Source: a virus. Taken from it: 64,000 bases of DNA. Position 1 is the stretch's first letter. Each line of letters begins with the position of its first letter. The stretch spans positions 1 to 64,000 of the IMG/VR virus record IMGVR_UViG_3300008012_000023; one strand, written 5' to 3'. This document shows positions 13,274 through 31,920 of the stretch, one piece after another. The position numbers and the translations under genes were made by a program. The notes under the pieces are model-generated. The model searched no databases. It saw only the letters and a program-made list of their open reading frames with translations, and had not been told where the DNA came from.

Positions 13274-13422
13274 TAGAATTCTGCCTTTACTCCCACTTGA
13301 GGATTTTCAATACAACTATCCTTGATCTCTTTCATCGTTTCCTTTTTTAGATCAACACCACACGTGGCAGAAGGTTTTATACCACAACCTAGACAGAATA
13401 AAAAAATAATTAGATATCTCAT
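13273..13422 (-). CDS. 49-aa lipoprotein-like microprotein
   Basis: The start ATG (13422-13420) overlaps the carbamoyltransferase stop (ATGA) and the stop TAA overlaps the next ATG (TAATG), so it is translationally coupled on both sides. The N-terminus MRYLIIFLFCLGCGIKPS is a short basic-hydrophobic signal ending in CLGC, near but not equal to the standard lipobox (Leu at -2 instead of -3). The mature part is about 36 residues, charged, with two more Cys (C21, C37). A membrane-anchored lipoprotein or an Rz1-like outer spanin are possibilities; no inner spanin partner is visible. It is too short for ordinary gene callers. Confidence 0.55.
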   Translation of the reverse strand: MRYLIIFLFCLGCGIKPSATCGVDLKKETMKEIKDSCIENPQVGVKAEF

Positions 13423-14885
13423 CCTAGTACTTTAACTCCGTACTTGTTGGTAAATGCTTTACCATCCTCTCTATCGTTCACGATTGGTTGTCCTTTTATG
13501 TTCAAACTGGTATTCAAAAGTATGGGGCAACCAGTCTGTTTTTTCCATTCTGTGAGCAGTGCGTGGAACCCTGGATTATCCGTCTTACGCACGGTTTGAA
13601 CCCTACTTGTGTGATCATGGTGTATTATAGCAGGAAAGTCTTTACCAGCAGTACAAGGCGCTGTAAATTGCATATAAGGGGTGTTTTTAACGGCTTTAGG
13701 AAGGGTGAAATAGTCGTTCACATCCTCTTCTAATATGGCTGGTGCGAACGGTCTGAACTTCTGTCTTTTCTTGATACTGTTTACCAAATCCTTTATCTCG
13801 GGTCCTCTAGGGTCTGCCAACAGTGATCTATTACCAAGTGCCCTTGGGCCAAATTCCGCCCTGCCACTTGCCACTCCCACCATCTTGTTTTCCTTTAGTT
13901 CTTTGATCAAACTGTCAACAGGATACTCGCCGTCTATGTTGTGTCCCAGAAAAGGATGTTGCCAGTTCAAGAACATTTTCTCATTGGCCGCTATGCAACC
14001 CAAACTTGATCCTGCGTCACCGGGATTGGGTATTATCCAAATGTTATCGAAAAAATTCATATCTGCTAGAACTCTGTTTGCGGCACAGTTCAAAGCAACT
14101 CCTCCCGCATAAACAAGATTCCTTGATGAGTATCTAGATGCCCTCATCCACAAATCTGCCAGGCATTCTTCTGTGACCTGTTGTATGCTGGCCGCGATGT
14201 CCATTACGTCTGCTTCGGGGTGCCATTCTCCCAAACCCCTGTGTAGATTCTTTTTCAGCCTGAAAGGTGACTGTTCCACAAAGTCGTTGTAGATATCATC
14301 TTTGTATTTTGGCTTGCCGTAAGCGGCCATACCCATGAGGATATACTCCTCCTCTGCTGGTTTCAATCCACAACGGTGTGTGAACGCCGAATATAAAACT
14401 CCTATAGAGTCGGGATAATTTATTGTTTCTTGTGTCCTGATTTGTGTGCCTTCGGCCGTGGATATGGAAACAGTGTTCCATTCACCTATCGCATCCACTG
14501 TGAGGATAGTGGCATGAGTAAAAGGCGAGGTGTAATATCCGGCCGCGGCGTGTGAGTCGTGATGTTTGACATACTCATCTATCTTAATATTGAAATGATC
14601 CAGGTGCCATTGTGGCATTTCTGTATAACTCATTGCCAACCCATACTGTCCTGCGTAGAACTGTCTTGTCTTCTTCAAAAAAGGCTTTTCATAATACACA
14701 ACCTTGTCAAAAGGTCCGTAAGTGTTTGCCTCGTTCACTATACCCCAGTTGAGGTAGTGATCGTTTTTGACTTTGGAGTATCTTTCCGAGTGTGCGGCCC
14801 ATAGTATTTCTCCTTTGCCGTTGCTAAAATCCACAACAGACATAGCGGCGTCGTGGTTCATGCAGTTAATTCCCAGTATTCTCAT
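13419..14885 (-). CDS. NodU/CmcH-family carbamoyltransferase
   Basis: 488 aa. This family transfers a carbamoyl group from carbamoyl phosphate, through carbamoyl-AMP, to a sugar or antibiotic hydroxyl. The N-terminal Kae1-like domain starts MRILGINCMNHDAA and has VKHHDSHAAAGYYTSPF (metal His residues), LTVDAIGEW and VYAGGVALNCAANRVL. The C-terminal YrdC-like domain carries GRAEFGPRALGNRSLLADPR (about 345-364), the adenylate-forming signature. Length is slightly below the usual 550-600 residues. It overlaps the neighbouring genes by four bases on both sides. It probably decorates the product built by the glycosyltransferases upstream in the cassette. G+C is somewhat higher than in its neighbours. 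Confidence 0.9.
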   Translation of the reverse strand: MRILGINCMNHDAAMSVVDFSNGKGEILWAAHSERYSKVKNDHYLNWGIVNEANTYGPFDKVVYYEKPFLKKTRQFYAGQYGLAMSYTEMPQWHLDHFNIKIDEYVKHHDSHAAAGYYTSPFTHATILTVDAIGEWNTVSISTAEGTQIRTQETINYPDSIGVLYSAFTHRCGLKPAEEEYILMGMAAYGKPKYKDDIYNDFVEQSPFRLKKNLHRGLGEWHPEADVMDIAASIQQVTEECLADLWMRASRYSSRNLVYAGGVALNCAANRVLADMNFFDNIWIIPNPGDAGSSLGCIAANEKMFLNWQHPFLGHNIDGEYPVDSLIKELKENKMVGVASGRAEFGPRALGNRSLLADPRGPEIKDLVNSIKKRQKFRPFAPAILEEDVNDYFTLPKAVKNTPYMQFTAPCTAGKDFPAIIHHDHTSRVQTVRKTDNPGFHALLTEWKKQTGCPILLNTSLNIKGQPIVNDREDGKAFTNKYGVKVLG

Positions 14886-15292
14886 CCTCTAATGTCCTCT
14901 ATAGATTCTATATATTTTTTAAGTTCTTTGTCCTGTACATCATTCGGTATTTCATTCTTATAAAATATTTTGTAACTGTCACTTCCATATTTTCCTATAC
15001 CATAAAGGTCACTTGCCTCTTTTCCGTCCCAGGTGAGATAATCTACGCTCATTTGTCTCAACCTTTTTACTCTCACACTCCACATACCCAACGGTTTCAA
15101 CATCTTTTCCTGTGCTTTCGCTCGACCCCTAATAAATTTTACAGGATCTGGATATCTCTTGAACAATTTTGGAAGTATCTCTTTGACCTGTTTCCTATAG
15201 GTTTGATTGAGACATATCACGCCCACCATGTGTTGCCACACGCTATTAACCTGTTGTTGTACCATTAGGTCATCTCTCATTTGATACTCCAC
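14882..15292 (-). CDS. Mini HhH-GPD DNA glycosylase-like protein
   Basis: 136 aa. GVICLNQTYRKQVKEILPKLF, then LKPLGMWSVRVKRLRQMS, then DLYGIGKYGSDSYKIF (about 95-110) and VQDKELKKYIE (D121) follow the order of MBD4/EndoIII-type base-excision glycosylases. DLYGIGKYG is the helix-hairpin-helix and D121 the likely catalytic Asp. It lacks the Fe-S cysteines of EndoIII and is at the lower size limit. Such enzymes remove mismatched or modified pyrimidines. A DNA-repair enzyme inside a glycan/radical-SAM cassette is unexpected. It overlaps both neighbours, so it is an operon member. Confidence 0.68.
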   Translation of the reverse strand: MEYQMRDDLMVQQQVNSVWQHMVGVICLNQTYRKQVKEILPKLFKRYPDPVKFIRGRAKAQEKMLKPLGMWSVRVKRLRQMSVDYLTWDGKEASDLYGIGKYGSDSYKIFYKNEIPNDVQDKELKKYIESIEDIRG

Positions 15293-15864
15293 TTAATTTT
15301 ACTGAATTTTTCTTTCAATTTTTCTACCCTTTCTTGCCATTCCTCTAGTGTGATGTCGTATTCATAATTCACCGTTGTGGCATTTTGTTGCAGACAGGTT
15401 GCTCCGTTTCCGAGATGAAACTTTTCTGCCATTTCTGTGATGGGAGATAAAGTCACCAAACGATCTATGTGATTTTCTCTTTTAAATTTTTTATATATCT
15501 CATTCAGGATGTGTTTGCCTCCTCCCTTCATCTTGGCCCATACTGTGTAAGCCACAGCGACTCTACCCACGAGATTATTTCTCAACACCGACTGCAGATG
15601 TGCGTCCTTGCTCATGTCTTTTAACTCCTTAACACTTTTAGGAATTTCGTTTGTAAAGGCGATGCATATTATAGCCATTAGGTTTTTATCCTGATCGAGC
15701 AATCCAAAAATTTTGCGTCCATATGATGTTCTGAATTCCAAATCCAATTCGGGTCTTACAGGATCTTCCTGCACATCTATTTCCACTAATTCTTTCAGAT
15801 CAAATCGTTGGTCTTTTTTGAACCAGTTTTTGAATTTGTCTTTTATTTCCGCAAGTGTATTCAT
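15277..15864 (-). CDS. GNAT acetyltransferase-like protein
   Basis: 195 aa. The centre has a strand (FGLLDQDKNLMAIICIAFTNE), a second strand RVAVAYTVWAKMKGGGKHILNEIYK where GGGKHIL replaces the acetyl-CoA loop, and RLVTLSPITEMAEKFHLGNGATCLQQNATTVNYEY as the C-terminal GNAT strand-helix-strand. The fit is to GNAT folds in general, not to a named subfamily. The N-terminal 40 residues are basic and helical. It starts four bases before the stop of the 34-aa microprotein and overlaps the glycosylase gene. A role as acyl donor enzyme in cassette product decoration is inference. Confidence 0.55.
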   Translation of the reverse strand: MNTLAEIKDKFKNWFKKDQRFDLKELVEIDVQEDPVRPELDLEFRTSYGRKIFGLLDQDKNLMAIICIAFTNEIPKSVKELKDMSKDAHLQSVLRNNLVGRVAVAYTVWAKMKGGGKHILNEIYKKFKRENHIDRLVTLSPITEMAEKFHLGNGATCLQQNATTVNYEYDITLEEWQERVEKLKEKFSKIKWSIK

Positions 15865-15867: not shown

Positions 15868-15972
15868 TTACTTGTAGATAAAAGGATCTTTCTTTTTAAG
15901 TTCTTTTATTCTTTTCCTATACTCAATCTCTTGTTTTATTTTGAGATATATTTTTTTAATCCAACTAAACAT
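15868..15972 (-). CDS. 34-aa microprotein with C-terminal KKDPFIYK motif
   Basis: Starts at ATG 15972, five bases after a strong ribosome site (AGGAG at 15982-15978 on the minus strand, within GAAAGGAGA), and ends with TAA at 15870-15868. The peptide begins MFSWIKK, continues as a very basic amphipathic helix and ends KKDPFIYK. A second ORF at 16,657-16,764 encodes a clearly related 35-aa peptide ending KKDPYLYR; the methyltransferase gene lies between them. Such similarity between two tiny ORFs, each with its own ribosome site, argues for real products. Function unknown; peptide substrate, membrane-binding peptide or protein-binding tag are options. Confidence 0.62.
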   Translation of the reverse strand: MFSWIKKIYLKIKQEIEYRKRIKELKKKDPFIYK

Positions 15973-16660
15973 ATTTTCTCCTTTCAAGTTTGTAAGTTGT
16001 TAATCCTCCACTGTTTGCCTTCCATACAAGATGAAAGTTAGGGAATATTTTTGATATGATCGGATACGATGCTGTCACTTTGTAGTCGTCAAACATATCC
16101 TGAACATCTTTGTGGTCAAAACCAATTTCAAACGGGCATTCCATTTGATCTTTTTTTAATATCTTGCTTTCAAAAAAAGACAAAGGAGCAATCTTTTGTA
16201 AAAGTTTTACCCATTTATTATAGACGCCCAATAGTATGATTCCGTTTGGCTTCAACAAAGATTTGATTTTGGTTACAGCCAGTTTGTAATCTGGCATATG
16301 GTGTAACACACCCTGGCATAGAATGACGTCATATTTTTTGGATTTTTCCATTTCAATAAAATCTTTCTGCATCCATTTGATATTTTTGTTGCCTAGTTTA
16401 TCAGAAATTTTTTTGGCAATCGCTACACCGTTGCTGAAATCAACACCGGTTATTTTTATGTCTTTGTTTGTGTAGGCCAAAAAGTTTGAAATATATCCAG
16501 TTCCACATCCTATATCAAGCAAAGTTTTTCGACCTTTGGTTTGATCAACAATAAAATTTATATATTTGTTATCTCTGTGTTTTTGCTGTGTCAGGAAATT
16601 TTTTACCGAGTAATTGCCCGGAAAAGGATTTCTGTCATAGAATGTTTTTACTTTGCTCAT
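15965..16660 (-). CDS. Class I SAM-dependent methyltransferase
   Basis: 231 aa. The N-terminus KVKTFYDRNPFPGNY is typical of a broad group of small-molecule/glycan methyltransferases. Motif I is LLDIGCGTGYISNFLA (about 47-62), the acidic ribose-binding residue is in ITGVDFS, and VILCQGVLHHMPD and LLKPNGIILLGVYNKW are motifs IV-VI. A complete, probably active SAM domain. The start ATG overlaps the stop of one microprotein (ATGA) and its end overlaps the start of the other by eight bases. A methyl group on a sugar, lipid or peptide made by the cassette is the likely product; the exact acceptor is unknown. Confidence 0.85.
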   Translation of the reverse strand: MSKVKTFYDRNPFPGNYSVKNFLTQQKHRDNKYINFIVDQTKGRKTLLDIGCGTGYISNFLAYTNKDIKITGVDFSNGVAIAKKISDKLGNKNIKWMQKDFIEMEKSKKYDVILCQGVLHHMPDYKLAVTKIKSLLKPNGIILLGVYNKWVKLLQKIAPLSFFESKILKKDQMECPFEIGFDHKDVQDMFDDYKVTASYPIISKIFPNFHLVWKANSGGLTTYKLERRKYV

Positions 16661-16764
16661 CTGTATAGATACGGATCCTTCTTTTTCCTTAACTTTTTAA
16701 GTTTTCTTTTGTATGTAATGTCACTTAGGTATTTTTTTATTTTGGCAATTAGTTTTTCAAACAT
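16657..16764 (-). CDS. 35-aa microprotein with C-terminal KKDPYLYR motif
   Basis: Starts at ATG 16764, inside the end of the SGNH gene, with GAAGGAGA about ten bases upstream on the minus strand, and stops at 16659-16657 overlapping the methyltransferase ATG (ATGA). The peptide is a basic helix beginning MFEKLIAKIKKY and ending in KKKDPYLYR. It aligns with the 34-aa peptide encoded at 15,868-15,972 (shared I-x-Y-K/R-K/R, L, KKDP-F/Y-x-Y-K/R). Overlap and coupling on both sides support translation. No function is known to me. Confidence 0.6.
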   Translation of the reverse strand: MFEKLIAKIKKYLSDITYKRKLKKLRKKKDPYLYR

Positions 16765-17552
16765 TTTAAAAAAGTCTCCTTCATTAATTTTACAGCATCT
16801 TGGTGCGCCTCGTCTAGTGGATGAGTCGTGGCGTACGGATATTCATTCATTTTGGCCCATTGGTTAAAACCCATCATTCTTTCACCAAAACTGAACCATC
16901 TGGTAAAATCTATTTCGTTATACAGTGCGGTCAAAAGACTGTCCTCTTTGTGGATAGGCTTTTTGTCATTGTAAAAAAGGCTGTTATCGGCAAGTGTGAA
17001 CATATATGGTATTTTCTTTTTCTCCAAAATGTTCTGCAACCAAACAATAGATTTCCAACTGAGATATGCTTCGTGGTATTGGTTGGCGGCATATTTGTAC
17101 AGACTGTCAGCGAACGGTCCTATTCCTGTTTCTTTGTAAAGATGCTGTCTCTTTTTGAATTCGTCCATCACAGGTTCACTGTGGCCGATTGTGTTTTCTA
17201 CTTCTTTTTGTCGTAGATTTGTATCCCATGGTGTTATTGTTGCCCATCTTGTCCTTTCCAGGTTGCTGTTCCTTGCCATTGCCCAATCGTATCTGCTGAG
17301 GAATGTCCACATCACAACTACAATTATTTTTTCTTCTTTTCTGTTTGCCACATAGTCAAAGACTCTCCTAGCAATTCCTGAATTTCCCAAACCTCCTTTT
17401 GCCACACAAAAATAATTTCCTGCAACTGTATCATTCAACCTAGCGGCCCAGGTCTTGCTACTGTAATTTTTACCTGTGTCATCGCTGAGCTCGTTGCCAT
17501 AAGTGAAACTACAACCGCCCGATAAAACTGTTTCTTTTCCTATACTACTCAT
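16749..17552 (-). CDS. SGNH/GDSL hydrolase-like protein
   Basis: 267 aa. VLSGGCSFTYGNEL (about 9-22) gives block I with S15 as the nucleophile, VAKGGLGNSGIARRVFDYV is block III (GxxN), and THPLDEAHQDAVKLM near the C-terminus supplies the Asp/His pair, so all SGNH blocks appear present. No signal peptide, so a cytoplasmic deacylase or acyltransferase is likelier than a secreted lipase. It lies between the last radical SAM gene and the microprotein/methyltransferase set. A related protein is encoded at 22,614-23,348. The substrate is probably an acylated sugar or nucleotide-linked intermediate (inference). Confidence 0.7.
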   Translation of the reverse strand: MSSIGKETVLSGGCSFTYGNELSDDTGKNYSSKTWAARLNDTVAGNYFCVAKGGLGNSGIARRVFDYVANRKEEKIIVVVMWTFLSRYDWAMARNSNLERTRWATITPWDTNLRQKEVENTIGHSEPVMDEFKKRQHLYKETGIGPFADSLYKYAANQYHEAYLSWKSIVWLQNILEKKKIPYMFTLADNSLFYNDKKPIHKEDSLLTALYNEIDFTRWFSFGERMMGFNQWAKMNEYPYATTHPLDEAHQDAVKLMKETFLKCLKN

Positions 17553-18711
17553 AAACTTTCAACATATTATTTAAAATTGGAAATGCTTCACTAAATTTTT
17601 CACCACGGTGTTTGTCCGCCAGTAAAATTCTATCTCGACGCTGTTTGTTCATTTCCTCCGAGTACCTGTCACTGCTGTTCATGTAATCAATTATGCCTTT
17701 GAATTCTTTTATCTGGATATATCTGTCTGTTGCTATATTTTTGATCTGTCTCGGCAGGGTTTGTATGTTAAAATATTCTGGATCAAAACAAGTGTTCACA
17801 TAGAAAAATTTTGGATCAATCTGTTTCACCCAATAGGCCAATTTTGCCAGACTGAAAATATTGAAGATGTTTATGGTGCTACAAATTTGGAAATCTATAT
17901 TTCCCGGATTATATTCTTTGAACTTCTGGATGTTTTCATTCACCTCTTTCCATTTTGCTGGGTGCCTTTGATATTCAAACTGTTCTCCCACATCATCTAT
18001 GCTGAATGCTATCTCAACTCTCTTAAAGTGTTTCCACAACCAAAATACATTTTTCGGAGGCAACTGTGTGCCATTGGTATTGTAATGTATGTCTTGATTT
18101 TTGGCGTAACCCTGCTGTACACAATATTCCAAAATTTTAAAATGATTTTGTATCATGAAAGGCTCTCCTCCGGTGAACTCAAAATATTCTACATCTTTCA
18201 ATACATCTTTTATTTCCTCAAAAAATTGCGGGTGTTTTTTCGGCCATCCGCCTTCTTTTAAATTTTTTCTTGCCACTGGATTCTCTCCGTAATCTAATTC
18301 TTCCTGTGCCCATTTGGATGAGGACCAAGAACCACATATCCTGCACTTAAGATTACAAACGTTGCCCAGTTTAAAGTCAATGAACTTCAAGGTTGGCTCG
18401 CTATCGGGTGTCCAATCTTTGAGACTTTTACTCAGTTTATAGATCGAGTTTTGTCTTTTAGAAACTTTGCCAGCATTTTCTTCTGCCCAACAACTTTCGC
18501 ACCCGTTTGGTCTTTGTCCGCTTTTGAACTGCTTACGTAAGGAATTCATGTATTCGCTTTGCTGTATCGTTTTAAGATCAGTTTCATAAACTTTAAAATC
18601 TTCGATGTTGCCTTTGTACAGACAGCAAGGTGATGCTGATCCATTTACATCCACTTCCAGATGTGTCCATGGCAGAGGACATATATTTGATTTTAGATAT
18701 CGTTCCACCAT
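17545..18711 (-). CDS. Radical SAM protein with N-terminal twitch domain (paralogue 1)
   Basis: 388 aa, the shortest of five tandem paralogues. Before the radical SAM core lies a separate cysteine domain: C11 in CPLPWTHLEV, C29/C30 in ASPCC and C71/C74 in GCESC, expected to hold an auxiliary Fe-S cluster as in twitch/SPASM domains. The SAM cluster motif is C119-x3-C123-x2-C126 (CNLKCRIC), followed by FTGGEPFM. Enzymes of this type usually modify peptides or carry out difficult C-H chemistry. It overlaps both neighbours by a few bases. The target is unknown. Confidence 0.85.
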   Translation of the reverse strand: MVERYLKSNICPLPWTHLEVDVNGSASPCCLYKGNIEDFKVYETDLKTIQQSEYMNSLRKQFKSGQRPNGCESCWAEENAGKVSKRQNSIYKLSKSLKDWTPDSEPTLKFIDFKLGNVCNLKCRICGSWSSSKWAQEELDYGENPVARKNLKEGGWPKKHPQFFEEIKDVLKDVEYFEFTGGEPFMIQNHFKILEYCVQQGYAKNQDIHYNTNGTQLPPKNVFWLWKHFKRVEIAFSIDDVGEQFEYQRHPAKWKEVNENIQKFKEYNPGNIDFQICSTINIFNIFSLAKLAYWVKQIDPKFFYVNTCFDPEYFNIQTLPRQIKNIATDRYIQIKEFKGIIDYMNSSDRYSEEMNKQRRDRILLADKHRGEKFSEAFPILNNMLKVYE

Positions 18712-20009
18712 TTTAAAACCTCTGTGTTTTTTTCAAATATTTTTGTAATGTCTGTTCCTCTAATTTTGTCCAAATATAATATTCTTTTTTTGCCTCTTTT
18801 CAATCCCTCACTGTACTCCTCTTTGGAATATTTCTCTTCTAGAGTTTTATGATTTTTTATATCTTTCAATCCTTCTATGAAAGACAAATTAAACATTGTT
18901 GTTTTATCTTGAATTTTTTCCAATACACCATCAATAATAGAATGTAAAAGATGTTTTGGCAAGCACAAAGGTGTCCAAAGATTGTCTGCTGTAAAACTAA
19001 AAACTTTTTTACACAATAAAATCAGTTTGAGATCTTTACTTAAATTGTACATATTTTCTAAATCAAATAAACCAGGCAATGTTACTGTCAGATCTAATTG
19101 CAACTGTCTTGGATGTTTCATAAATTTTTTAGCATACTTTATATTTTCAAGCCATTGCTCGTACTTCAATCCTGTTCTAATATATTCACCGATATGACCA
19201 GTCCCATCAATCGAGGCATTGATTTGCCAGTCTTGAAACTTCACAAGTAAATCATCAAACAGATTTTTTCCGTAATAATCTATCTTGCTAAAATTGGTGT
19301 TATACCTTGCATACACTTGGTCGGCATAATCCAAATCAATCACTCTCTGCATGGCCTCCCAATGTATCTTCCACATCAAAGGTTCACCGCCACACCAATA
19401 AAATTCACGTAATCTTTTTTCTTCTATGGCTTCTGTAAACTCTTTGATTACTTGTTGATCAGTAAATTTTTGTATCTGCTCTTTGATGTCTTTTCTACCC
19501 CAAGGGTTTTTATCATAATCAAAATTATCGTGCCTTTTGTTTTCTGTTTCCCAACTACTGCTTAACATATCGCCGCACATTCTACAACTAAAGTTACATA
19601 GATTTGAAAATCGATAATCAAAACTAGTAACTTGTAATTCTGTATGTCCGTTTTCGTTGGTTTTTTCAAAAGCCTCATCTATCAATCCACTGTACATTCT
19701 GTTGAAATGCTGACGATAAACTTGACTGTTCAACAGTTTATGATTACAAGTAGCACACTGTGGTATTTCTTCTCCTGCCATAAGTTTTTTTCTTACAGAT
19801 TTCATATAATCACTGTTCCAGTGTTCTTCCAAAGTTGTAAATTCCACAGGTTTTCCTTCTGGATTTTTTGTATCAATATACTGTTTGAAATTTTGAGATT
19901 CTTCCAATGAAGCACAACACAATCTTCTTTCCATCTGTGGAGAAAGATAGGTATGAGTCCACGGAGCCATACAGAATGTTTTGTTTCCTTGATTAGGCTT
20001 TATTTTCAT
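18693..20009 (-). CDS. Radical SAM protein with N-terminal twitch domain (paralogue 2)
   Basis: 438 aa from ATG 20009, just after GAGGA. An upstream in-frame ATG (20045) has no ribosome site and lies deeper in the previous gene. The N-terminal auxiliary motif is C13 (FCMAPWTH), C31/C32 and C85/C88. The radical SAM motif is C138-x3-C142-x2-C145 (CNFSCRMC). WCGGEPLM is the SAM-contacting GGEP loop. The C-terminal part is Lys-rich and ends near the start of paralogue 1. Compared with paralogue 1 it has a longer loop between the two cluster domains. Confidence 0.85.
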   Translation of the reverse strand: MKIKPNQGNKTFCMAPWTHTYLSPQMERRLCCASLEESQNFKQYIDTKNPEGKPVEFTTLEEHWNSDYMKSVRKKLMAGEEIPQCATCNHKLLNSQVYRQHFNRMYSGLIDEAFEKTNENGHTELQVTSFDYRFSNLCNFSCRMCGDMLSSSWETENKRHDNFDYDKNPWGRKDIKEQIQKFTDQQVIKEFTEAIEEKRLREFYWCGGEPLMWKIHWEAMQRVIDLDYADQVYARYNTNFSKIDYYGKNLFDDLLVKFQDWQINASIDGTGHIGEYIRTGLKYEQWLENIKYAKKFMKHPRQLQLDLTVTLPGLFDLENMYNLSKDLKLILLCKKVFSFTADNLWTPLCLPKHLLHSIIDGVLEKIQDKTTMFNLSFIEGLKDIKNHKTLEEKYSKEEYSEGLKRGKKRILYLDKIRGTDITKIFEKNTEVLKWWNDI

Positions 20010-21288
20010 AGTCCTCGAACAGTTCCTTCCATTCTGGGAAAACATCTACTGTGTTTTCATTTCTTATACTGTCATACTTTCTTGTTTCGGCAAAAAATGT
20101 AGGTAGAAATTTTGACATATCTCTCCTAAACAAATAATCTAGACCGCTTTCAAAACCCATGGTTGCCCTTGTCAATTTGTCTAATGGCTTCAACCAGTCT
20201 ATATGAGATTCGTATTTTTCTTTGACTTGTTCTTTGTATTCGTTGGGCAACAAATCCATCCTTTGCCAATTTGGAAATTGCAGTAGATTGAAATTGAAAT
20301 CTTGTGGTTTGATTAAACCCAACTCAACCCAGTTTTTATGGAAATCAGTTACGTGTAAACTGTTCAACAACCCTACAGTAGAACTGATATAAAAATCTAC
20401 TTGCGGACAAACATCTAACATTCTTTTTCTATTTGCTACAATATCTTCCCATACAGTACCTTTCCTCATTAGTTCTGCTCGTGGACCTTCAGCGTCTAAA
20501 CTTGCTCCTACTGAAACTGAATCAAATTTGTTCCATAATTCTAACACATCCATATCTTTGAATGTGGTTCTACTGAGATTGCTGTTGTATATCAATCTTA
20601 CGTGATACATTTTTCTACGATCTAATTCTTTCAAAATATTATAGTGCTCAGGCATTATTAAAGGTTCACCGCCAGCAAAATAAAACTGTTCAACGTGTTC
20701 GAACTGTTCTAACATCTGTTTCCAAATATCATCACTGTCTCTTCCTACTCTCATAATTTTTGGATGATTGGGTGGTTGTCCTGTCAATTTTTTATGATCT
20801 TCATACCAATTGGACGAGAACCAAGTGCCACAACTACGACAAGCCATATTACACAAATTGCTGAACCGGATATCCCAATATTTGATTATAAAATCTGCTG
20901 ACCCATCTTCTTTGGTACTGTTAATCAATCCAATATTATGTCCAAAATGTTTGTTGGAACTTAAACGTAAAGAAAAGAAACCTGACTTTTCTTGATCATA
21001 ACATTTTATACACTCTCTTGATTTTTTGTTGTTCAACATATTCAATCGCATTTGTTTCATTTTTTCACCATTGAATACTTCCTCCATGCTTTGATTGTTT
21101 AAATTTCCTACATCAAATTTGTCAAAAGCAAAACAACAAGGATATGCTCTACCGTCCGGAAACGAATGTAAATGCATCCATGGCAACATACAAAAAGTCT
21201 CCGAATCAATCAGCAACTCCTTTTCTTTAGGAGTCATATCTTTTATTTTTAATTTCTCAGGCTCTTTGGCCCCGTACTCATATGCCAC
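19993..21288 (-). CDS. Radical SAM protein with N-terminal twitch domain (paralogue 3)
   Basis: 431 aa. After a 30-residue charged leader the auxiliary motif FCMLPWMHLHSFPDGRAYPCC places C33 and C51/C52, with C93/C96 following. The catalytic cluster motif is C146-x3-C150-x2-C153 (CNMACRSC), and YFAGGEPLIM is the GGEP loop. FPDGRAYPCC matches the Gly-x4-Cys step of SPASM domains, but here it precedes the core instead of following it. It overlaps paralogue 4 by 11 bases. Closest in architecture to paralogues 1 and 2. Confidence 0.86.
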   Translation of the reverse strand: MAYEYGAKEPEKLKIKDMTPKEKELLIDSETFCMLPWMHLHSFPDGRAYPCCFAFDKFDVGNLNNQSMEEVFNGEKMKQMRLNMLNNKKSRECIKCYDQEKSGFFSLRLSSNKHFGHNIGLINSTKEDGSADFIIKYWDIRFSNLCNMACRSCGTWFSSNWYEDHKKLTGQPPNHPKIMRVGRDSDDIWKQMLEQFEHVEQFYFAGGEPLIMPEHYNILKELDRRKMYHVRLIYNSNLSRTTFKDMDVLELWNKFDSVSVGASLDAEGPRAELMRKGTVWEDIVANRKRMLDVCPQVDFYISSTVGLLNSLHVTDFHKNWVELGLIKPQDFNFNLLQFPNWQRMDLLPNEYKEQVKEKYESHIDWLKPLDKLTRATMGFESGLDYLFRRDMSKFLPTFFAETRKYDSIRNENTVDVFPEWKELFEDYENKA

Positions 21289-22624
21289 TGTACCATTCTC
21301 CTATAATTGGAAAAGTTTTTGCTAGGTCTTTTCCTCGTCTTTTATCATATTGCCCATAAAAATTTTTGAAATCTTTTTGTAATTTGTCTATTTCGGCCGC
21401 ACCCGCGTGTGGTGATGTTACTTCTTGTAAATATTCTATCAATCTTTTCACGTGTTCTTTTTCCATCGGCTCAATATCGCTCTCATTATCTGAAAGCCAT
21501 TCTATCAAATTTTGCCTAAATTTCTTTTTGAGTTCTGTTGGAAGGACAAGTGGTGATTGGAAACTAGGAAACCTCAAAATGTTAAGAGTAAAATTGACAT
21601 CAGAGCCAAATGCTTGACGATAGGATTTTTTGAACTGCACAATCCTGCTTAGAAATTCTGGTAGTGATTCCAAGCACAACGCATTCACAGTACACATCAC
21701 GTGAAATCCTTTTGGTTGTAAACGAACCATAAGATTAACAAAATTTGAAAACCATTCTGAATACTTCATTCCATCTCTTATGTAATCCGCCTGATCAAAC
21801 ATGGCTTCATTTGATGTGTAGATATGAAGATTTGGAATCCGGCCACATCTATCTAAAAATTTTTCAAACAAATCTGGTTTTGGCACAAGGTTAGTGTTCA
21901 CAGCAAATCTCATATGAGGATTTACTCTATTCTTCTCGTCAGCGAACCAATCTAGCAAACGCCAAAAATGAGGAGACATCATAGGTTCGCCGCCTGTGAT
22001 CCTTAATTCGTCTAGACTTCTATGTAAGTCTGTTTGCCACCAAGTAAAAAATGCTTCTACATATGGATTTGTTTCTTCTAGTTTATACAATTGAGCGGCA
22101 TTATGAGGATGTGTAAAATGATTTCTACCATCTGATTTTAAATCTGTATATGGACCATTTGTTTTGATATCTCTCACCCATGTGGTACTGAATGCTGGGT
22201 TACAATACGAACAGGCAAAATTACAGGTCCTATCAAAAGCAATTTCTAAAGTTTTCAAATTCCAATCTGTATCAATACTGCTGGATTTTGCCTCACTCAA
22301 TATCGACTCTGGATATATTTTAGATTTGTAGGTCCTGTCAGACACAGAACCGTTGTTCATGTCTTCGATCTTCCAACAATATTCACAACCTTTGGGCCTT
22401 TCTCCGCACTGCATCTGCCTTCTGTGTTCTTTCTTTTCTTTGGTGTTGTGCAGAGCACTTGGATTGTTTTTTATTTCATTTACATCAATTTTATGAGCCG
22501 GTGGATGATGGCAACTTGTGGTCATACCTGATCCTAACCATATAGTTGCATTGAACCATTTGGCTCCACAAAAACTCGGAGAAAGTTTATCTAATACTTG
22601 TTTCTGATATTCGTTATCTTTCAT
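21278..22624 (-). CDS. Radical SAM protein with N-terminal twitch domain (paralogue 4)
   Basis: 448 aa. Auxiliary cysteines are C19 (SFCGAKW), C38 (TTSCHHPPAH) and C80/C83 (GCEYCWKIED). The radical SAM motif is C134-x3-C138-x2-C141 (CNFACSYC), followed by RITGGEPMMSP. It shares with paralogue 5 features absent from 1-3: the CHHPPAHKID/CYHPPLHEID string, NPSALHNT/NPAALHNT and a KRRGK/RRRGT C-terminus, so 4 and 5 form a subfamily. It overlaps the SGNH gene by 11 bases. G+C is ordinary for the window. Confidence 0.86.
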   Translation of the reverse strand: MKDNEYQKQVLDKLSPSFCGAKWFNATIWLGSGMTTSCHHPPAHKIDVNEIKNNPSALHNTKEKKEHRRQMQCGERPKGCEYCWKIEDMNNGSVSDRTYKSKIYPESILSEAKSSSIDTDWNLKTLEIAFDRTCNFACSYCNPAFSTTWVRDIKTNGPYTDLKSDGRNHFTHPHNAAQLYKLEETNPYVEAFFTWWQTDLHRSLDELRITGGEPMMSPHFWRLLDWFADEKNRVNPHMRFAVNTNLVPKPDLFEKFLDRCGRIPNLHIYTSNEAMFDQADYIRDGMKYSEWFSNFVNLMVRLQPKGFHVMCTVNALCLESLPEFLSRIVQFKKSYRQAFGSDVNFTLNILRFPSFQSPLVLPTELKKKFRQNLIEWLSDNESDIEPMEKEHVKRLIEYLQEVTSPHAGAAEIDKLQKDFKNFYGQYDKRRGKDLAKTFPIIGEWYSGI

Positions 22625-23348
22625 ACTTGTCTTTTATATCTTGTGTTCTAGTAATTATTGATTGTTCATATTCGTCGGGTAATTTTTTCTCGTTTCCATA
22701 AATTATCTGTTTTGTCCATTCGTAATGTGCTTTAGGTAAAGGGTGTTCGTCACCATCAACATAATCATTTGGATAATTTTCTTGAGCAAATTCCCACAAA
22801 CCTTTTTTGTCTTCATAAAACAAAAATTTTTCCCAATTGATTTCGTTGTATATCATTTTTTCTGCCACAGACTTTGGATTATGTTCTAGGACATCTTCTT
22901 TAAATATCATCATTGTGTAGTCTATATTTTTTGATTCAAGATGCTTTTGTGTATACCAAATTCTCTCGAGAGTTCTGAACCTATTTTGGTCTTCGTTCAA
23001 GAAATATTTTTGATAGTATTTGTGATGCTCTTTAACAGGGTGTCCCCCGAACCAAACGTGCCACTGGAAATCCGGATCCCAACGCGAGTATGTGGCATCA
23101 GCAACTTTTTCAAACAGTGATTGATTTTCTATAATTTCATATCTGTTGTATCCGGACCACATAATATACATCTTATTGATATTTTTGAAACGCATTGAAC
23201 TATTCACAGCCATACGAGATATTGTCTCGTTTCCACTTGCCGACATTCCTAAGTTTTTGACAGGTGTATCTTTTTCAAAAAATTTGATGTAGTGCGGCCA
23301 GCACTCCCATCTATACCTTGTAAATGAGCAACCATGTGTGATTATCAT
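22614..23348 (-). CDS. SGNH hydrolase-like protein between two radical SAM genes
   Basis: 244 aa. MIITHGCSFTRYRW provides block I (S8), NLGMSASGNETISRMAVNS is block III, and YVDGDEHPLPKAHYEW supplies a late Asp/His block. IMWSGYNRYEI resembles the strand preceding the catalytic Asn region. It overlaps the radical SAM genes on both sides, which ties it to their pathway. No secretion signal. As for the protein at 16,749, a deacylase or acyltransferase acting on a cytoplasmic intermediate is the best guess. Confidence 0.65.
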   Translation of the reverse strand: MIITHGCSFTRYRWECWPHYIKFFEKDTPVKNLGMSASGNETISRMAVNSSMRFKNINKMYIMWSGYNRYEIIENQSLFEKVADATYSRWDPDFQWHVWFGGHPVKEHHKYYQKYFLNEDQNRFRTLERIWYTQKHLESKNIDYTMMIFKEDVLEHNPKSVAEKMIYNEINWEKFLFYEDKKGLWEFAQENYPNDYVDGDEHPLPKAHYEWTKQIIYGNEKKLPDEYEQSIITRTQDIKDKYER

Positions 23349-24712
23349 AAATTTTTACACTCCTTCCAAAATTCCAGCATTTCGGGAAATGTGTTTTCAA
23401 AACTTGTTCCGCGTCTGCGATCGTGTTCGTTAAAAAATGCGTAAAAGTTCTTTTTTTGTTCTATGCTATTTGCGTAATTTTTTTTCCAGTACGCTAGATT
23501 GCGAAGCATTTTTTGTACCTCGAAGTCCTTGAATTGACTGTAGTTGTCTTCTCCAGAATTCTCCCTCATCCATTCTGTGTTGCTTTGATGTATGGCCTGG
23601 TATGCCTCTGGTAACAGCGTTATCTGTTGCCAGGCTGGTTGCCTCAGCAGTGGCACATCGAACCACACACGCTGATAGGTGCTGGAGTGCTTCTGCCTCA
23701 GTTGTTTGATGTCTTCCAACAGGTCCCTCATACTGGTTACGCTGAGGTTGTTGTATGTGATAATAAAAGTGACGCTGTTGCGTACAGGTATCCTGTCCAG
23801 GAATTCGTCAACATTGTCTATGAATCTGTTGTAGTCCAGTCCGTTCCTGATGTATTCCGCTTTCCGGCCATGGGCATCCACACTGACGAACTGCATGAAA
23901 TGTTCCACACTGCCATCTAGGCATATCCTTTTCACCTGGTCGAAATACTTGTTCTTTAACCTGTCGTCGGGCGGACACATATTGCTGGTCACGTTGAGAT
24001 GGAGGTCGGGTTTGGGATTCTTGATCACGTAATCAAATACCTTGTAGGTGTTGTTGTCCATCATGGGTTCTCCTCCCGTCATACGGAAGTGCTTGAGATT
24101 TTTGTACAGTGTTGGCCACCATTCCCAGAACGCCTTCACATATGGGTTATCCTCGCGGTTTGGTATGGGTCTTCGCCTGCCCTGGAAGTGCTCGGGTGCG
24201 TTGTGGGGAGGAGTGGTTGGATATTGGCCGTACCTTTCCACTTCCTGCCCCCACTTGGTCGAGAACTGTGGCGAACAGTAACTGCACCTGAAGTTACAGG
24301 CGTTGTTGAAGTTCACCTCCACGTATCTCGGCGTCCAACTTTTTGTCATTGGATTCTGTAAAATCTCGTCAAAGTCCTGCATGGCCCAGGGCTCACCGCT
24401 CCTGTAGTGCCTGTCAGACATGGCTCCTGTGTCCTCTATCTTCCAGCAGTAACTACAACCCGTGGGTCTGTCGCCCTTCAGCATCTCTTCACGCTGTCGC
24501 AGTTTTTCCTGGGTGTTGTGCAGTGCCGCGGGATTGTTTTTCAATTCTGTGGCATCTATCTCGTGCAGGGGTGGGTGGTAGCAACTGTTTGTCAGACCCG
24601 TGGGCAGGTGTAGGCTGACCTGGTTCCACTTGGCCAGGCACATTGTGGGTGATACCTCATCCAGTTTCACCCTGGCCCTGTCCGCATCTGACTGATACCT
24701 ACTGGTACTCAC
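23345..24712 (-). CDS. Radical SAM protein with N-terminal twitch domain (paralogue 5), high G+C
   Basis: 455 aa if started at GTG 24712, which has AAAGGAG nine bases upstream and gives an N-terminus equal in length to paralogue 4; an ATG at 24781 would overlap the previous gene by 83 bases. Auxiliary cysteines are C25, C44 and C86/C89. The SAM motif is C139-x3-C143-x2-C146 (CNFRCSYC), and FRMTGGEPMM is the GGEP loop. Most of the gene is far richer in G+C (about 55% on one hand-counted line) than its closest paralogue beside it, which suggests separate acquisition together with the adjoining glycosyltransferase. Confidence 0.86.
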   Translation of the reverse strand: MSTSRYQSDADRARVKLDEVSPTMCLAKWNQVSLHLPTGLTNSCYHPPLHEIDATELKNNPAALHNTQEKLRQREEMLKGDRPTGCSYCWKIEDTGAMSDRHYRSGEPWAMQDFDEILQNPMTKSWTPRYVEVNFNNACNFRCSYCSPQFSTKWGQEVERYGQYPTTPPHNAPEHFQGRRRPIPNREDNPYVKAFWEWWPTLYKNLKHFRMTGGEPMMDNNTYKVFDYVIKNPKPDLHLNVTSNMCPPDDRLKNKYFDQVKRICLDGSVEHFMQFVSVDAHGRKAEYIRNGLDYNRFIDNVDEFLDRIPVRNSVTFIITYNNLSVTSMRDLLEDIKQLRQKHSSTYQRVWFDVPLLRQPAWQQITLLPEAYQAIHQSNTEWMRENSGEDNYSQFKDFEVQKMLRNLAYWKKNYANSIEQKKNFYAFFNEHDRRRGTSFENTFPEMLEFWKECKNL

Positions 24713-25592
24713 GATCCTGAACTCCTTTGTTGACCCACACTCCCTGGCAAAACTTGAAAAATCTGCTTTCGTCCTCGCCATAATCTGCTATGGGTACGCC
24801 TAATCTCTGCCTCAGGCTGTTGCCATATTTTTTAATATCGTCTTCTGGTTGTATCTGTAGTTTGCCAAACAGGTCATTTAGATGTTCCAGACTGCTGATG
24901 CGTTTGACATCCATTCCCTTGATCACTGTCATCCAGCATCCGATACGGGCACCCAGCATGGCGTACATACCATGTTCCACATCTGCCCCCACGCTCATCC
25001 ACGTGGTCAGTGTTCTAAGATTGGTTGGCTGTATATTTTTCACGAACTGCGATGGAGAAATCACTTTGCCCCTGTCCAGGCTCATCTTGACACCTTCCCT
25101 GTATCCTGCGACAAAGGCCTGTTGTGGAGAACTGTTTATCACGGTGTCAGAGTAGACGTTGTGTAAATTCTCGTGTGGCACTCCCCAACAGAAGTCGATG
25201 TCGTTCTGCTCGTTGTCCGAATTTTCGTGTGTCTTCATGGAAAGACAGGTGTCTTTGTGCCAACCCACCAGGCCACCGTTGCCGTATACCAGGCCATTCA
25301 CGCTGTTCCTGGCACGCCATCTGTGTACCGCTTTGGGATCGGTCTTTGCGAAATCTAGTGTTTCCATCAAAAATTTTGGGTCTATGACGTTGTCACCGTC
25401 CACGCTAATGAAGAAGTCGGTCTCCGCCAGTTCTGCCGCGGCCTTGTGTGCCGAATCGAATCCAACAACACCATCAACACGCTTGGCCCATGGCACCTTG
25501 TCCAGTAGGTCCGCCCAGTTCTCTTCCTTGTTGGGCTCTCGGAAACTTATGAACACAAAATCCAGATCGCTTGTCCTCATTCTGCCTTCCAT
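24699..25592 (-). CDS. Family 2-like glycosyltransferase, high G+C
   Basis: 297 aa. LDFVFISFREPNKEENW begins the nucleotide-sugar domain, GVVGFDSAHKAAAELAETDF is the region before the DxD, and FISVDGDNVIDPKF holds D65/D67, a clear metal-binding DxD. GNGGLVGWHKDTC fits the acceptor loop. AAGGAGG six bases before ATG 25592 supports this start; an alternative ATG at 25580 would give the ATGA coupling with the preceding gene. Base composition is markedly G+C-rich like the next gene, unlike the other two glycosyltransferases upstream. Confidence 0.78.
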   Translation of the reverse strand: MEGRMRTSDLDFVFISFREPNKEENWADLLDKVPWAKRVDGVVGFDSAHKAAAELAETDFFISVDGDNVIDPKFLMETLDFAKTDPKAVHRWRARNSVNGLVYGNGGLVGWHKDTCLSMKTHENSDNEQNDIDFCWGVPHENLHNVYSDTVINSSPQQAFVAGYREGVKMSLDRGKVISPSQFVKNIQPTNLRTLTTWMSVGADVEHGMYAMLGARIGCWMTVIKGMDVKRISSLEHLNDLFGKLQIQPEDDIKKYGNSLRQRLGVPIADYGEDESRFFKFCQGVWVNKGVQDREYQ

Positions 25593-25864
25593 TTGTATCC
25601 TCCTTGCCCGTTAGATTTTACCCAATAGGGATTTCTCGAAAAGAAAATATAACCCTTGTCGTCTTTGTGTAGCAACGGATATCTAACCGATTTGGGTTTC
25701 TTCAACTGTATAACCGAATCTTTCACGAAGTACTTGTCCTCGCCATTTTTTATAATTTCAATTTTTTTCTCAAGGCTGACTTCGTGTTGCCTGCCTTGTA
25801 TGGTAACAAAATGACGTTTGCTCTTTTTACTCCTGTTGTTTAATGCTTCAAAAAATCCTGGCAT
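25577..25864 (-). CDS. Small basic phage protein, unknown
   Basis: 95 aa, overlapping both neighbours. The sequence is very basic (RSKKSKRHF) with a beta-rich C-terminal part (GYIFFSRNPYWVKSNGQGGYKW). I recognise no domain. It sits between two glycosyltransferases. A role as adaptor, or as a substrate carrying the Ser/Asn/Lys residues that a glycosyltransferase or radical SAM enzyme could modify, cannot be excluded and is untested. Its G+C is low, in contrast to the next gene. Confidence 0.6.
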   Translation of the reverse strand: MPGFFEALNNRSKKSKRHFVTIQGRQHEVSLEKKIEIIKNGEDKYFVKDSVIQLKKPKSVRYPLLHKDDKGYIFFSRNPYWVKSNGQGGYKWKAE

Positions 25865-26642
25865 TTAATTGCTCCATTGTTTTTTTGTGATGATAGTGCC
25901 ATATTCCACACAGCCTGTGACTTCCAACATATAGGTCATTATTGATCAACATAGGATTCAAATATTCATTGTTGTCAATGGAATGCCTGATACCGTTTAT
26001 GAGATTTTTGTTGTGTACAATCTTGAACCAGTCAAATTCAACGTGGTGTTCATCCAATGGGTCAAGCATTTTGTACGCCAAAGCATATACCTCGTCGGTA
26101 GTGGGACTATCGTTGTCGCAACCCACTAGACATTCTTCTCTGATTGTGTTCCAGTTTTTTGTTATGGCTCCGCACAGTTTATAAAAATTTTCTGCCAGTT
26201 TGCTTTTTCTAAAATAGGTAAGGCAGTTGTAGATGTTGGGCAAAGAGTTGCGTCTGAACAATTCTCTGTAATGCTTGTCCACCACTTCCTCGCCTTTGTA
26301 GTTCAAACAATTCCTGCTTGTCACCATATCGTGCCGACATAGATAATTCCACCACCAATCTATATTGCCACACACAACCATGTCCGCCTCCAATTTTATG
26401 CTATGAGTAAACGGCGACAGGCCAAATATCCTGTGTTCATTGTTGAAGGCCAGATGTGAAGGATTTTTCATAGTGACCACGTAATCAAAATATTTGTCGT
26501 GTTGTATTTTCTTGTCTGTGATCACGCAGATCTTGTTGATACTGTTGTGCTTTTTGATGCTTTCTGCTAGTTTCCTACTGAGATCGATATAGTCAACACT
26601 GTCGGTGTTGGTTGCGAACCAAATAAAACCTTTATCGGCCAT
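25848..26642 (-). CDS. GT-A nucleotide-diphospho-sugar transferase-like protein
   Basis: 264 aa. FIWFATNTDSVDYIDLSRKL and NKICVITDKK begin the Rossmann-like domain. HSIKLEADMVVCGNIDWWW contains E85-A-D87 at the place of the DxD motif. A LLVGCDND segment and HLVEFDWF-like region follow. It resembles GT8-like enzymes and its upstream neighbour (26,632-27,396), so the two are probably an old duplication. Cytoplasmic, no membrane segment. Sugar and acceptor unknown. Confidence 0.65.
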   Translation of the reverse strand: MADKGFIWFATNTDSVDYIDLSRKLAESIKKHNSINKICVITDKKIQHDKYFDYVVTMKNPSHLAFNNEHRIFGLSPFTHSIKLEADMVVCGNIDWWWNYLCRHDMVTSRNCLNYKGEEVVDKHYRELFRRNSLPNIYNCLTYFRKSKLAENFYKLCGAITKNWNTIREECLVGCDNDSPTTDEVYALAYKMLDPLDEHHVEFDWFKIVHNKNLINGIRHSIDNNEYLNPMLINNDLYVGSHRLCGIWHYHHKKTMEQLNARIF

Positions 26643-27396
26643 TTACAAACTCCTTGTCCAATAGATGCACATCGATTCCCTGCAGGTAACCTACCCTTTT
26701 GTCATATCTGAACATCAGTCCAGAATCATCTATGTCCAACACGTCGTACTCGTGCGGCAACATAAACATAGGCGCAGGTATAAAATTTTCCACAGGGATC
26801 ATTCCATTCATCTGATGCAGGGCCACCGCGAAAGCAAAGTCGTTCCTGTAATTCCTATGTCTGATCCTGTACAAATTTCTGTAGTGTTCATAATTTTGTT
26901 GTATGTGTTTGACAAGTGCGAAAATCCTCTCCGTGCGTTCACACTTCCTAAAAATAATCACCGTAGCCCAAACTATAGGCAGTACCGATTCATTGGTACC
27001 CAATATTACATTTTTTCCTGTGATATCCAGAACTTTGTCGTGTACCAGAAAATCATAGTCGGTATCCAGATACTTGAGGAGATTATCACTGAAACAAAAA
27101 TAATCTATGTCCATGAGGATAGTTTGGTCATAAGGACTATGGGATAACGCATTCACCCTTTCAAGGTTGTGCCATGAAATATTTTTTCCACGATAATATC
27201 TTGTGTTGCCTTTTCTATTTTCGATAATCCTAAATCCAACATCAAGATGTTTAACAAAATTGTGCGTTTCACTATTTGTTACCACAGTTATGGGTAACTT
27301 TAGAAAAGTTTCAATTTGTCTCACACATTTGATAAGGAATCTATGATATTTCACCTCGTCGGTGTCAAAGCAATACAACAACACACCCTTGGTCAT
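26632..27396 (-). CDS. GT-A glycosyltransferase-like protein with DxD
   Basis: 254 aa. GVLLYCFDTDEVKYHRFLIK and LPITVVTNSETH form the first strands, and YDQTILMDIDYFCFSDNL carries D96/D98, a proper DxD. WATVIIFRKCERTERIF and NDFAFAVALHQMNG are the later GT8-like elements. It is the first glycosyltransferase of the cassette, starting immediately after the 27,397-27,708 gene with no gap. Likely expressed from the promoter at 27,743-27,715 and, if read-through occurs, from late tail transcripts. Confidence 0.7.
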   Translation of the reverse strand: MTKGVLLYCFDTDEVKYHRFLIKCVRQIETFLKLPITVVTNSETHNFVKHLDVGFRIIENRKGNTRYYRGKNISWHNLERVNALSHSPYDQTILMDIDYFCFSDNLLKYLDTDYDFLVHDKVLDITGKNVILGTNESVLPIVWATVIIFRKCERTERIFALVKHIQQNYEHYRNLYRIRHRNYRNDFAFAVALHQMNGMIPVENFIPAPMFMLPHEYDVLDIDDSGLMFRYDKRVGYLQGIDVHLLDKEFVNGR

Positions 27397-27708
27397 CTAT
27401 CTTCTCTTCAGTTGTTCAAGAAGTTTACGGTATGCGTTGAGACTTTCTTGATTTTTTTGTATTAAAATTTCAAGGAAATTGTCAGGATTTTCTATTTGGC
27501 AGGGATTTTGGTTCGTGTCAAGTATTGTAAAGGTCTCGGAATATGATTTAAGTGTGCTGACTAGATTGATAGTTTCTGCATCCGCTTTGAATAGTTTTCC
27601 ATTGTAGGCAAATATCTGGTTTGCTCTGCATTTTTCCAACGCATTTTTCTTGGTCAGCGCCAGATCATGAGCGAGGTCAGAATACTCTTTAATTTTGCCA
27701 ATATCCAT
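27397..27708 (-). CDS. Conserved marine phage small protein heading the accessory cassette
   Basis: 103 aa, all helical, with the distinctive block LALTKKNALEKCRANQIFAYNGKLFKADAETINLVSTL that I recall as a conserved hypothetical of marine T4-like phages. LEILIQKNQESLNAYRKLLEQL is a probable coiled coil. No catalytic motif. The start codon is six bases behind a TATAAT box with no ribosome site, so the mRNA is predicted to be leaderless. It is the first gene after the tail fibre operon. Confidence 0.72.
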   Translation of the reverse strand: MDIGKIKEYSDLAHDLALTKKNALEKCRANQIFAYNGKLFKADAETINLVSTLKSYSETFTILDTNQNPCQIENPDNFLEILIQKNQESLNAYRKLLEQLKRR

Positions 27709-27714: not shown

Positions 27715-27743
27715 ATTATAACACTAATTATGGATTTTCTCAA
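27715..27743 (-). promoter_or_regulatory. Early sigma-70-like promoter of the accessory cassette, leaderless geometry
   Basis: On the minus strand, TTGAGA (27743-27738), 17-bp spacer, TATAAT (27720-27715). The ATG starts at 27708, six bases after the box. It is the only promoter I can support for the 16 kb minus-strand cassette. No terminator hairpin separates it from the tail fibre operon that ends at 27756. Confidence 0.72.
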
Positions 27744-28742: not shown

Positions 28743-28746
28743 AAAT

Positions 28747-30306: not shown

Positions 30307-30310
30307 AATA

Positions 30311-30490
30311 TTAGTTTGGTGCGTTATCTCTAACGTGCACCAAGAAACTTACATCTCCAAGTAATTTTATCAAAATTTCTGCTCTCTCAGGAGTCAACAT
30401 TTCATCCAATTCGGCAATCTCTTCCGAAGATAAAACAGATTGATAATTGGCATTTATGTAATCTGCCACGTTTTGTTTAGTTGTTGCCAT
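30311..30490 (-). CDS. 59-aa acidic helical protein between fibre genes
   Basis: Too short for a 60-residue cut-off but well supported: ATG 30490 has AAAGGAGC about six bases upstream on the minus strand, and the stop at 30313-30311 is five bases before the next gene. The product is helical (NVADYINANYQSVL, SSEEIAELDEMLTPERAEILIKLLG) and acidic. Without it a 200-base hole would remain in an otherwise gapless operon. A fibre-assembly chaperone would fit the position, but that is inference. Confidence 0.62.
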   Translation of the reverse strand: MATTKQNVADYINANYQSVLSSEEIAELDEMLTPERAEILIKLLGDVSFLVHVRDNAPN

Positions 30491-30510
30491 TCTTGCTCCT
30501 TTTTTACTAT

Positions 30511-31917: not shown

Positions 31918-31920
31918 TGG

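Follow-up and report, generated by a model that had tools for sequence, protein, structure and literature searches.

We describe a cassette of five N-twitch radical S-adenosylmethionine (SAM) genes on the minus strand of a 64,000-nucleotide stretch of viral DNA (hereafter the window; 64 kb out of the 93 kb virus record IMGVR_UViG_3300008012_000023, with a T4-like gene order). The five genes represent five subfamilies that are common in uncultivated T4-like aquatic viruses, and family members occur in hundreds of related viruses. Our favoured reading, to which we give a probability of about 0.5, is that the cassette, which lies in the host-recognition region of these viruses, encodes a cytosolic pathway, expressed early, for tailoring a sugar or glycan; an unusual sugar coat is the most likely thing to be made or edited, by a probably unusual chemistry. 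The basis for this reading is a set of co-inherited, intact and constrained enzymes, conserved glycan-type partners in viruses as well as bacteria, and a promoter-like site ahead of the cassette. Genomic context points to the sugar or glycan role; reactions, step order, timing and target are inferred. The five genes are as follows.

17545-18711, minus strand: gene 1, N-twitch radical SAM subfamily 1, 388 residues (NF033640 376 bits, PF04055, PF13186)
18693-20045, minus strand: gene 2, N-twitch radical SAM subfamily 2, 450 residues (NF033640 310 bits, PF04055)
19993-21288, minus strand: gene 3, N-twitch radical SAM subfamily 3, 431 residues (NF033640 400 bits, PF13186 48 bits, PF04055)
21278-22624, minus strand: gene 4, N-twitch radical SAM subfamily 4, 448 residues (NF033640 299 bits, PF04055)
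23345-24781, minus strand: gene 5, N-twitch radical SAM subfamily 5, 478 residues, or 455 with translation starting from the GTG at 24712 (NF033640 325 bits, PF04055)

All five open reading frames (ORFs) are intact, and adjacent genes of the cassette overlap or almost abut. Each protein matches the radical SAM family PF04055 above cutoff and the NCBIfam model NF033640 (N_Twi_rSAM) at 299 to 400 bits, against a cutoff of 170 and over nearly the full model, while the SPASM family PF13186 matches the N-terminus of the gene 1 and gene 3 products above cutoff and that of the gene 2 product slightly below it. A first-pass annotation, made from the sequence alone, had described five tandem radical SAM genes with an auxiliary cysteine domain before the core (its end coordinate, 24712, corresponds to the GTG start of gene 5), and this description holds in full: in all five proteins the auxiliary domain precedes the CX3CX2C radical SAM motif, and CX3CX2C, GGEP and four auxiliary cysteines (a single C, the last C of a C or CC, and a CxxC; C11, C30, C71 and C74 in gene 1 numbering) are invariant columns among the five. 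The CX3CX2C motif is present in 788 of 792 full-length homologues, and each of the seven cluster cysteines, the four auxiliary ones included, is retained in 782 to 790 of them, so that a chance origin of the pattern is excluded. With motif, PF04055 and model alignments in agreement, the five proteins are members of the radical SAM superfamily; their four auxiliary cysteine ligands correspond to a twitch domain, predicted to bind one auxiliary [4Fe-4S] cluster. Classification as classical SPASM maturases was rejected, since in those enzymes the domain follows the core and holds two clusters, whereas here it precedes the core and offers a single set of four cysteines.

The distribution of the family was followed by scanning viral contigs with all five proteins (at least 593 related stretches among at least 600 pattern matches) and with the products of genes 4 and 5 (474 related stretches among 599 matches). 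The best 80 loci of each scan, together with one annotated phage locus, gave a sample of 162 loci including the window. These loci contain 819 N-twitch ORFs, with the full cysteine pattern in 787 of the 807 long ones, and exactly five copies lie within the fetched flanks in 81 loci. In a tree of the homologues every gene of the window falls into its own orthologous clade: clade 1 comprises 162 tips (144 of the 162 loci), clade 2 133 tips (131 loci), clade 3 140 tips (129 loci), clade 4 172 tips (157 loci) and clade 5 157 tips (155 loci), while 43 tips were left unassigned. The division into genes 1-3 and genes 4-5 that had been proposed earlier is correct, although it understated the depth of separation. 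As to gene order, 42 loci show 5-4-3-2-1 and 31 show 5-4-3-1-2, the remaining orders being mostly insertions or truncations.

Median dN/dS (ratio of nonsynonymous to synonymous substitution rates) ranged from 0.045 to 0.079, indicating strongly purifying selection, and the pairwise identities of the five proteins mostly covary (Spearman rho 0.32 to 0.81), in agreement with largely vertical inheritance. Gene 4 is the best conserved (median pairwise identity 59%), its relatives in viral contigs showing 48 to 100% identity. Recent tandem duplication is ruled out by the five deep orthologous clades, and pseudogenes are ruled out by cysteine retention and dN/dS. Natural fusions also occur: four loci have genes 3 and 1 joined, and one locus joins a 1-like to a 2-like gene. 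The subfamily-3 proteins of many loci (L070, L139, L043, L023 and others) carry an additional N-terminal domain of about 130 residues that looks alpha/beta. Among isolated phages, 3 of 50,697 records matched when one of the five proteins was used as the query.

The earlier suggestion that so many radical SAM genes serve a dedicated pathway agrees with these results and with the neighbourhood of the genes: the five clades co-occur in conserved order and share partners, single copies are exceptional in the sample, and the cluster cysteines are kept. In the window, tail-fibre-type genes (27756-34855) and a gene for a 4198-residue structural protein that probably corresponds to VrlC lie upstream of the cassette. 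The remaining genes of the cassette, with the fibre gene immediately upstream, are listed below in the order of transcription; GT denotes a glycosyltransferase family.

27756-28742, minus strand: TF5, tail-fibre-type protein, immediately upstream and outside the cassette
27397-27708, minus strand: t105, the cassette's first gene, conserved in 107 loci
26632-27396, minus strand: second glycogenin-like (GT8-type) glycosyltransferase, same family and profile as the protein at 25848-26642
25848-26642, minus strand: glycogenin-like (GT8-type) glycosyltransferase (profile A3 against PDB: glycogenin, E 1.5e-4)
25577-25864, minus strand: small basic protein c9 in the slot between GT8 and GT2 genes, which c10 occupies in other loci
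24699-25592, minus strand: member of the GT2-like glycosyltransferase family (PF00535 sub-threshold, E 0.0015; DxD-like VDGDN)
22614-23348, minus strand: SGNH-like protein between genes 4 and 5 (PF19547/DUF6071-type; conserved GCSFT, GN and HP..H motifs)
16749-17552, minus strand: SGNH-like protein right after gene 1 (cluster c3, 84 loci)
15965-16660, minus strand: class I SAM methyltransferase, variable cargo (PF13847 86 bits)
15277-15864, minus strand: conserved protein, cluster c14 (27 loci)
14882-15292, minus strand: HhH-GPD-like small protein, variable cargo (PF00730 slightly below cutoff)
13419-14885, minus strand: NodU/TobZ-type O-carbamoyltransferase (PF16861 185 bits, PF02543 144 bits, phrog_1601)
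11987-13273, minus strand: second GT2-like protein at the unit's end (cluster c1; same family as the protein at 24699-25592)

The typical operon reads TF7, TF5, t105, two GT8-like genes, the small protein, a GT2-like gene, N-twitch genes 5, 4 and 3 followed by 2-1 or 1-2, the carbamoyltransferase and a further GT2-like gene, with SGNH-like, GT-type and other genes interleaved. Same-strand partners among the 162 loci are GT2-like (148 loci), GT8-like (131), carbamoyltransferase (103) and SGNH-like (84) genes. Of the SGNH-like genes said to be interleaved with the five, one indeed separates genes 4 and 5, and the other follows gene 1. The carbamoyltransferase is assigned by profile, with N- and C-terminal domains above cutoff and with the novobiocin, GdmN and TobZ (tobramycin) carbamoyltransferases as its PDB matches. 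The SGNH fold is suggested by motifs and weak profile evidence (PF19547 DUF6071 in 7 of 14 family members, PF13472 in one at E 0.09, and 4rsh at E 0.0076).

The association was also recovered from the side of the partners. Starting from the carbamoyltransferase, N-twitch genes were found in 46 of 60 loci, exactly five in 38, and at least four of the 14 loci lacking them start almost at the carbamoyltransferase gene. Starting from TF5 (53 loci with at least 8 kb downstream), N-twitch genes were found in 50 loci, at least three copies in 42 and the GT8 family in 52. Accessory genes of relatives encode sugar aminotransferases, epimerases, a SAM synthetase, an HsvA-like amidinotransferase and a TM0487/TTHB138-type protein, which we take to belong to the MIP18/SufT (DUF59) iron-sulfur family. 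Among relatives of the cluster-c13 aminotransferase, one matches ArnB. A Pfam scan of clusters c0 and c2 returned no informative family, and a PDB profile search with c2 gave zero matches. A simple hydropathy scan found no convincing membrane segment in any cassette protein, one GT8-like protein peaking at 1.69. The small proteins c9, c10, c36 and c37 share the slot between the GT8 and GT2 genes, c9 and c10 being distantly related by profile comparison, and a protein in this slot is a possible acceptor. Elsewhere, interspersed with this virus's structural genes, L005:12045-12758 and L005:13190-13834 (record positions 76045-76758 and 77190-77834) encode a sulfotransferase-like and a further SGNH-like protein.

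The gap between TF5 and t105 contains the following site.

27715-27743, minus strand: sigma70-like promoter TTGAGA-17-TATAAT with an extended -10, the -10 lying 6 nt from the t105 ATG

A promoter site with at least 10 of 12 matches precedes t105 in 42 of 85 distinct loci, compared with 3 in shuffled copies, whereas the other partner clusters and the five subfamilies show at most a small excess (subfamily 4, 10 versus 2; subfamily 5, 7 versus 1). In most loci the -10 ends 6 nt before the t105 ATG, a position from which a leaderless transcript would result, and 16 of 80 TF5-t105 gaps contain a terminator-like hairpin. In the genome of this virus, sigma70-like sites (score at least 10.5) precede seven genes, namely t105 and six that look non-structural, while a late-type NATAAATA motif precedes seven structural-looking genes. 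Given this site and the confinement of late motifs to structural genes, the cassette is apparently transcribed in the early or middle period as a unit separate from the tail-fibre genes. The conserved site and the placement of the late motifs argue against transcription from the late promoter of the fibre genes, although some read-through may occur, and the site weakens co-transcription with the fibres as an argument for virion modification. Several of the sigma70-like promoters, at the gene starts 478, 2556, 4687 and 27708 (the last being t105), lie about 34-35 nt before the start codon, where they would yield leaderless early messages. The gene at 478 (478-1365, plus strand) encodes a QueE-like radical SAM protein, separate from the five and missed by the PF04055 scan, and its promoter is near-consensus with a spacing suited to a leaderless start.

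Outside viruses, none of 14 control genomes contained the family above cutoff. Two of 396 Bacteroidota genomes did, as did 5 of 87 from a single Bacteroidota order and 1 of 247 from the SAR11 order. The SAR11 contig shows the viral five-gene order and was taken as viral, and the view of N-twitch genes as ordinary SAR11 host genes is not supported. Contigs with the viral cassette inside four bacterial metagenome-assembled genomes of GTDB (L168, L169, L170 and L171) are probably misbinned virus. In the Bdellovibrionales, 45 of 141 genomes carry the family, and neighbours of their N-twitch genes are a GT2 of the phage type (196-328 bits) and members of an ordinary radical SAM family. Several of these genomes (G482, G483, G506, G514 and others) have at least 12 N-twitch genes each, an expansion for which we know of no function. 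Three Bacteroidota species have an N-twitch gene that overlaps a NodU-type gene, and behind this pair come glycosyltransferase, epimerase and sugar-dehydrogenase-like genes; in one of the species a GDSL protein and an ABC-2 exporter were verified by profile. These Bacteroidota loci are of the O-antigen-export type. In the isolated Vibrio phage K566, two PF01501 GT8 genes are interspersed among five N-twitch genes, and a K566 protein used as the query in a viral-contig search gave zero matches.

AlphaFold2 models of the gene 1 and gene 4 products are confident (predicted local distance difference test, 95.8 and 94.2). Foldseek against PDB aligned chiefly the radical SAM core, best to viperin, CteB, SkfB and anSME, with template modelling (TM) scores of at most 0.43 by query length, and no whole-protein alignment to a solved structure was obtained. 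These matches do not decide between a sugar and a peptide substrate.

By analogy with characterised radical SAM enzymes, the CX3CX2C [4Fe-4S] cluster would cleave SAM to a 5'-deoxyadenosyl radical that takes a hydrogen atom from a C-H bond, and the N-terminal four-cysteine [4Fe-4S] cluster may, as in SPASM/twitch enzymes, act as an electron relay or substrate anchor. A sugar or glycan intermediate, the presumed substrate, would be built by the two glycogenin-like glycosyltransferases and those of the GT2-like type. The five subfamilies may then act on it in distinct and probably successive steps, such as deoxygenation, epimerisation or oxidation, after which the product would be O-carbamoylated by the NodU-type enzyme. 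The 'stepwise' element of the earlier proposal draws its support solely from the co-inheritance of the five paralogues and the natural 3+1 fusions. The target may be a host envelope glycan, perhaps in superinfection exclusion, or a phage protein; with soluble enzymes and no evident flippase, a host surface glycan and a virion protein are both possible. Radical SAM enzymes perform chemistry that few other enzymes manage, and in a bolder version, which we put forward tentatively and regard as doubtful, the viruses would run an assembly line of five dedicated radical SAM enzymes, each performing a different C-H reaction on a single sugar or glycan, to give a carbohydrate not known from cells; T4-like viruses would keep the cassette fixed in many environmental contigs, and predatory Bdellovibrionales would share it in part.

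The first-pass annotation had left open a sugar or a peptide as substrate. The sugar is favoured by glycan-enzyme partners in several separate contexts, and the peptide less so. Modification of a ribosomal peptide or of a virion protein (TF5, t105 or c9/c10) by thioether, epimerisation or C-C chemistry, as in SPASM maturases, would fit the SPASM/twitch domain, the nearest structures (SkfB, CteB, SuiB and anSME), the conserved small protein in the fixed GT8-GT2 slot of cassette variants and the position of the cassette after tail-fibre genes. We nevertheless consider it unlikely in view of those glycan-enzyme partners and of the cassette's apparent own early-type promoter; moreover, the twitch domain of the window proteins begins within the first ~45 residues, leaving scant space for a peptide-recognition domain, and a short gene with a hypervariable core was not found. 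The small proteins c9 and c10 are conserved throughout, and no convincing precursor of a ribosomally synthesised and post-translationally modified peptide emerged among the conserved small ORFs: c9, c10 and t105 lack a hypervariable core, in a clustering that covered ORFs above 60-70 residues, so that a very short precursor is possible. Virion glycosylation, in which the same sugar chemistry would end with cytosolic attachment of the glycan to a tail-fibre or other virion protein and so change adsorption, strikes us as similarly improbable. Glycogenin, which the GT8-like enzymes resemble, glycosylates protein, no flippase or clearly membrane-bound enzyme is seen in the cassette, and in most loci the cassette lies directly downstream of the tail fibres; however, the sigma70-like promoter and, in 16 of 80 loci, the terminator-like hairpin part it from the fibre gene, and the cellular relatives sit in polysaccharide-export loci. 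DNA hypermodification, or synthesis of a viperin-like nucleotide, is very improbable. The early-type promoter, the soluble enzymes, the QueE-like and HhH-GPD-like genes of the window and the presence of viperin among the best structural matches are compatible with it, but the viperin alignment is confined to the generic radical SAM core at the low TM scores given above, and the carbamoyltransferase, epimerase and O-antigen-export context points elsewhere.

Several observations weigh against a sugar or glycan tailoring pathway. The proposed substrate, product and activity are putative and read from genomic context, and the sigma70-like site is a putative promoter recognised in the sequence. Peptides are frequent substrates of twitch and SPASM enzymes, and sactipeptide maturases stand beside viperin among the nearest folds. 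The window's own GT2-like and GT8-like assignments are remote, the cassette itself does not encode a nucleotide-sugar pathway, so that the sugars would be host-supplied, and no glycan enzymes were seen near the cellular N-twitch genes L178, L179, L181, L183 and L173. Furthermore, the viral loci are the best matches to two queries seeded by close relatives, and the counts describe this sample of non-independent loci.

A co-inherited five-subfamily cassette that is common in uncultivated T4-like aquatic viruses and rare in isolates suggests a widespread, unstudied viral biosynthetic pathway. A sugar or glycan tailoring role would explain what purpose is served by the 'radical SAM cassettes' of pelagimyophage host-recognition islands. 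The O-carbamoyltransferase and O-antigen-export links supply a testable substrate class, and the isolated Vibrio phage K566, with N-twitch and GT8 genes, opens the question to bench work.

In the literature that we found, the five-subfamily N-twitch cassette, its fixed order and its promoter are not described, but two elements that the first-pass annotation implied to be novel have precedents. The N-terminal placement of the twitch domain is an architecture already named by NF033640, to which all five proteins belong and whose entry, as shown, states neither function nor substrate; new here are the division into five co-inherited orthologous subfamilies and their operon. The SPASM/twitch enzymes anSME, SkfB, CteB, BlsE and MoaA are alike in core fold, auxiliary cluster domain and SPASM profile matches, and differ in that the auxiliary domain of the window proteins precedes the core. 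NodU/TobZ O-carbamoyltransferases recur as a conserved partner of the viral cassette and, in the three Bacteroidota species, as the gene overlapped by an N-twitch gene. A large radical SAM investment in one phage is likewise known: in the Campylobacter T4-like phages CP220 and CPt10 the number of radical SAM proteins reaches 11-12, and an interchangeable module of five genes lies near baseplate genes (PMC2853527); for an environmental T4-like genome, 12 radical SAM genes have been reported (PMC5332604). The CP220 module resembles the cassette in its five radical SAM genes, which are accompanied in this isolated phage by an amidinotransferase and by nucleotide-diphospho-sugar-transferase-fold genes. 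Three CP220 radical SAM proteins and the amidinotransferase also belong with families that occur within N-twitch cassettes or next to them. The tested radical SAM proteins of the module are, however, not convincingly N-twitch (best 37 bits to the profile), which rules them out as homologues of the N-twitch type; for three of them the match is to the ordinary rS20 family, with 88-112 bits. For the pelagimyophage host recognition cluster (PMC7029224), the passages found in that study do not analyse the radical SAM genes further; the conserved order, the subfamilies, the promoter and the carbamoyltransferase link are new here. Phage modules with multiple radical SAM genes are thus already known, and the five-subfamily N-twitch cassette adds to that kind.

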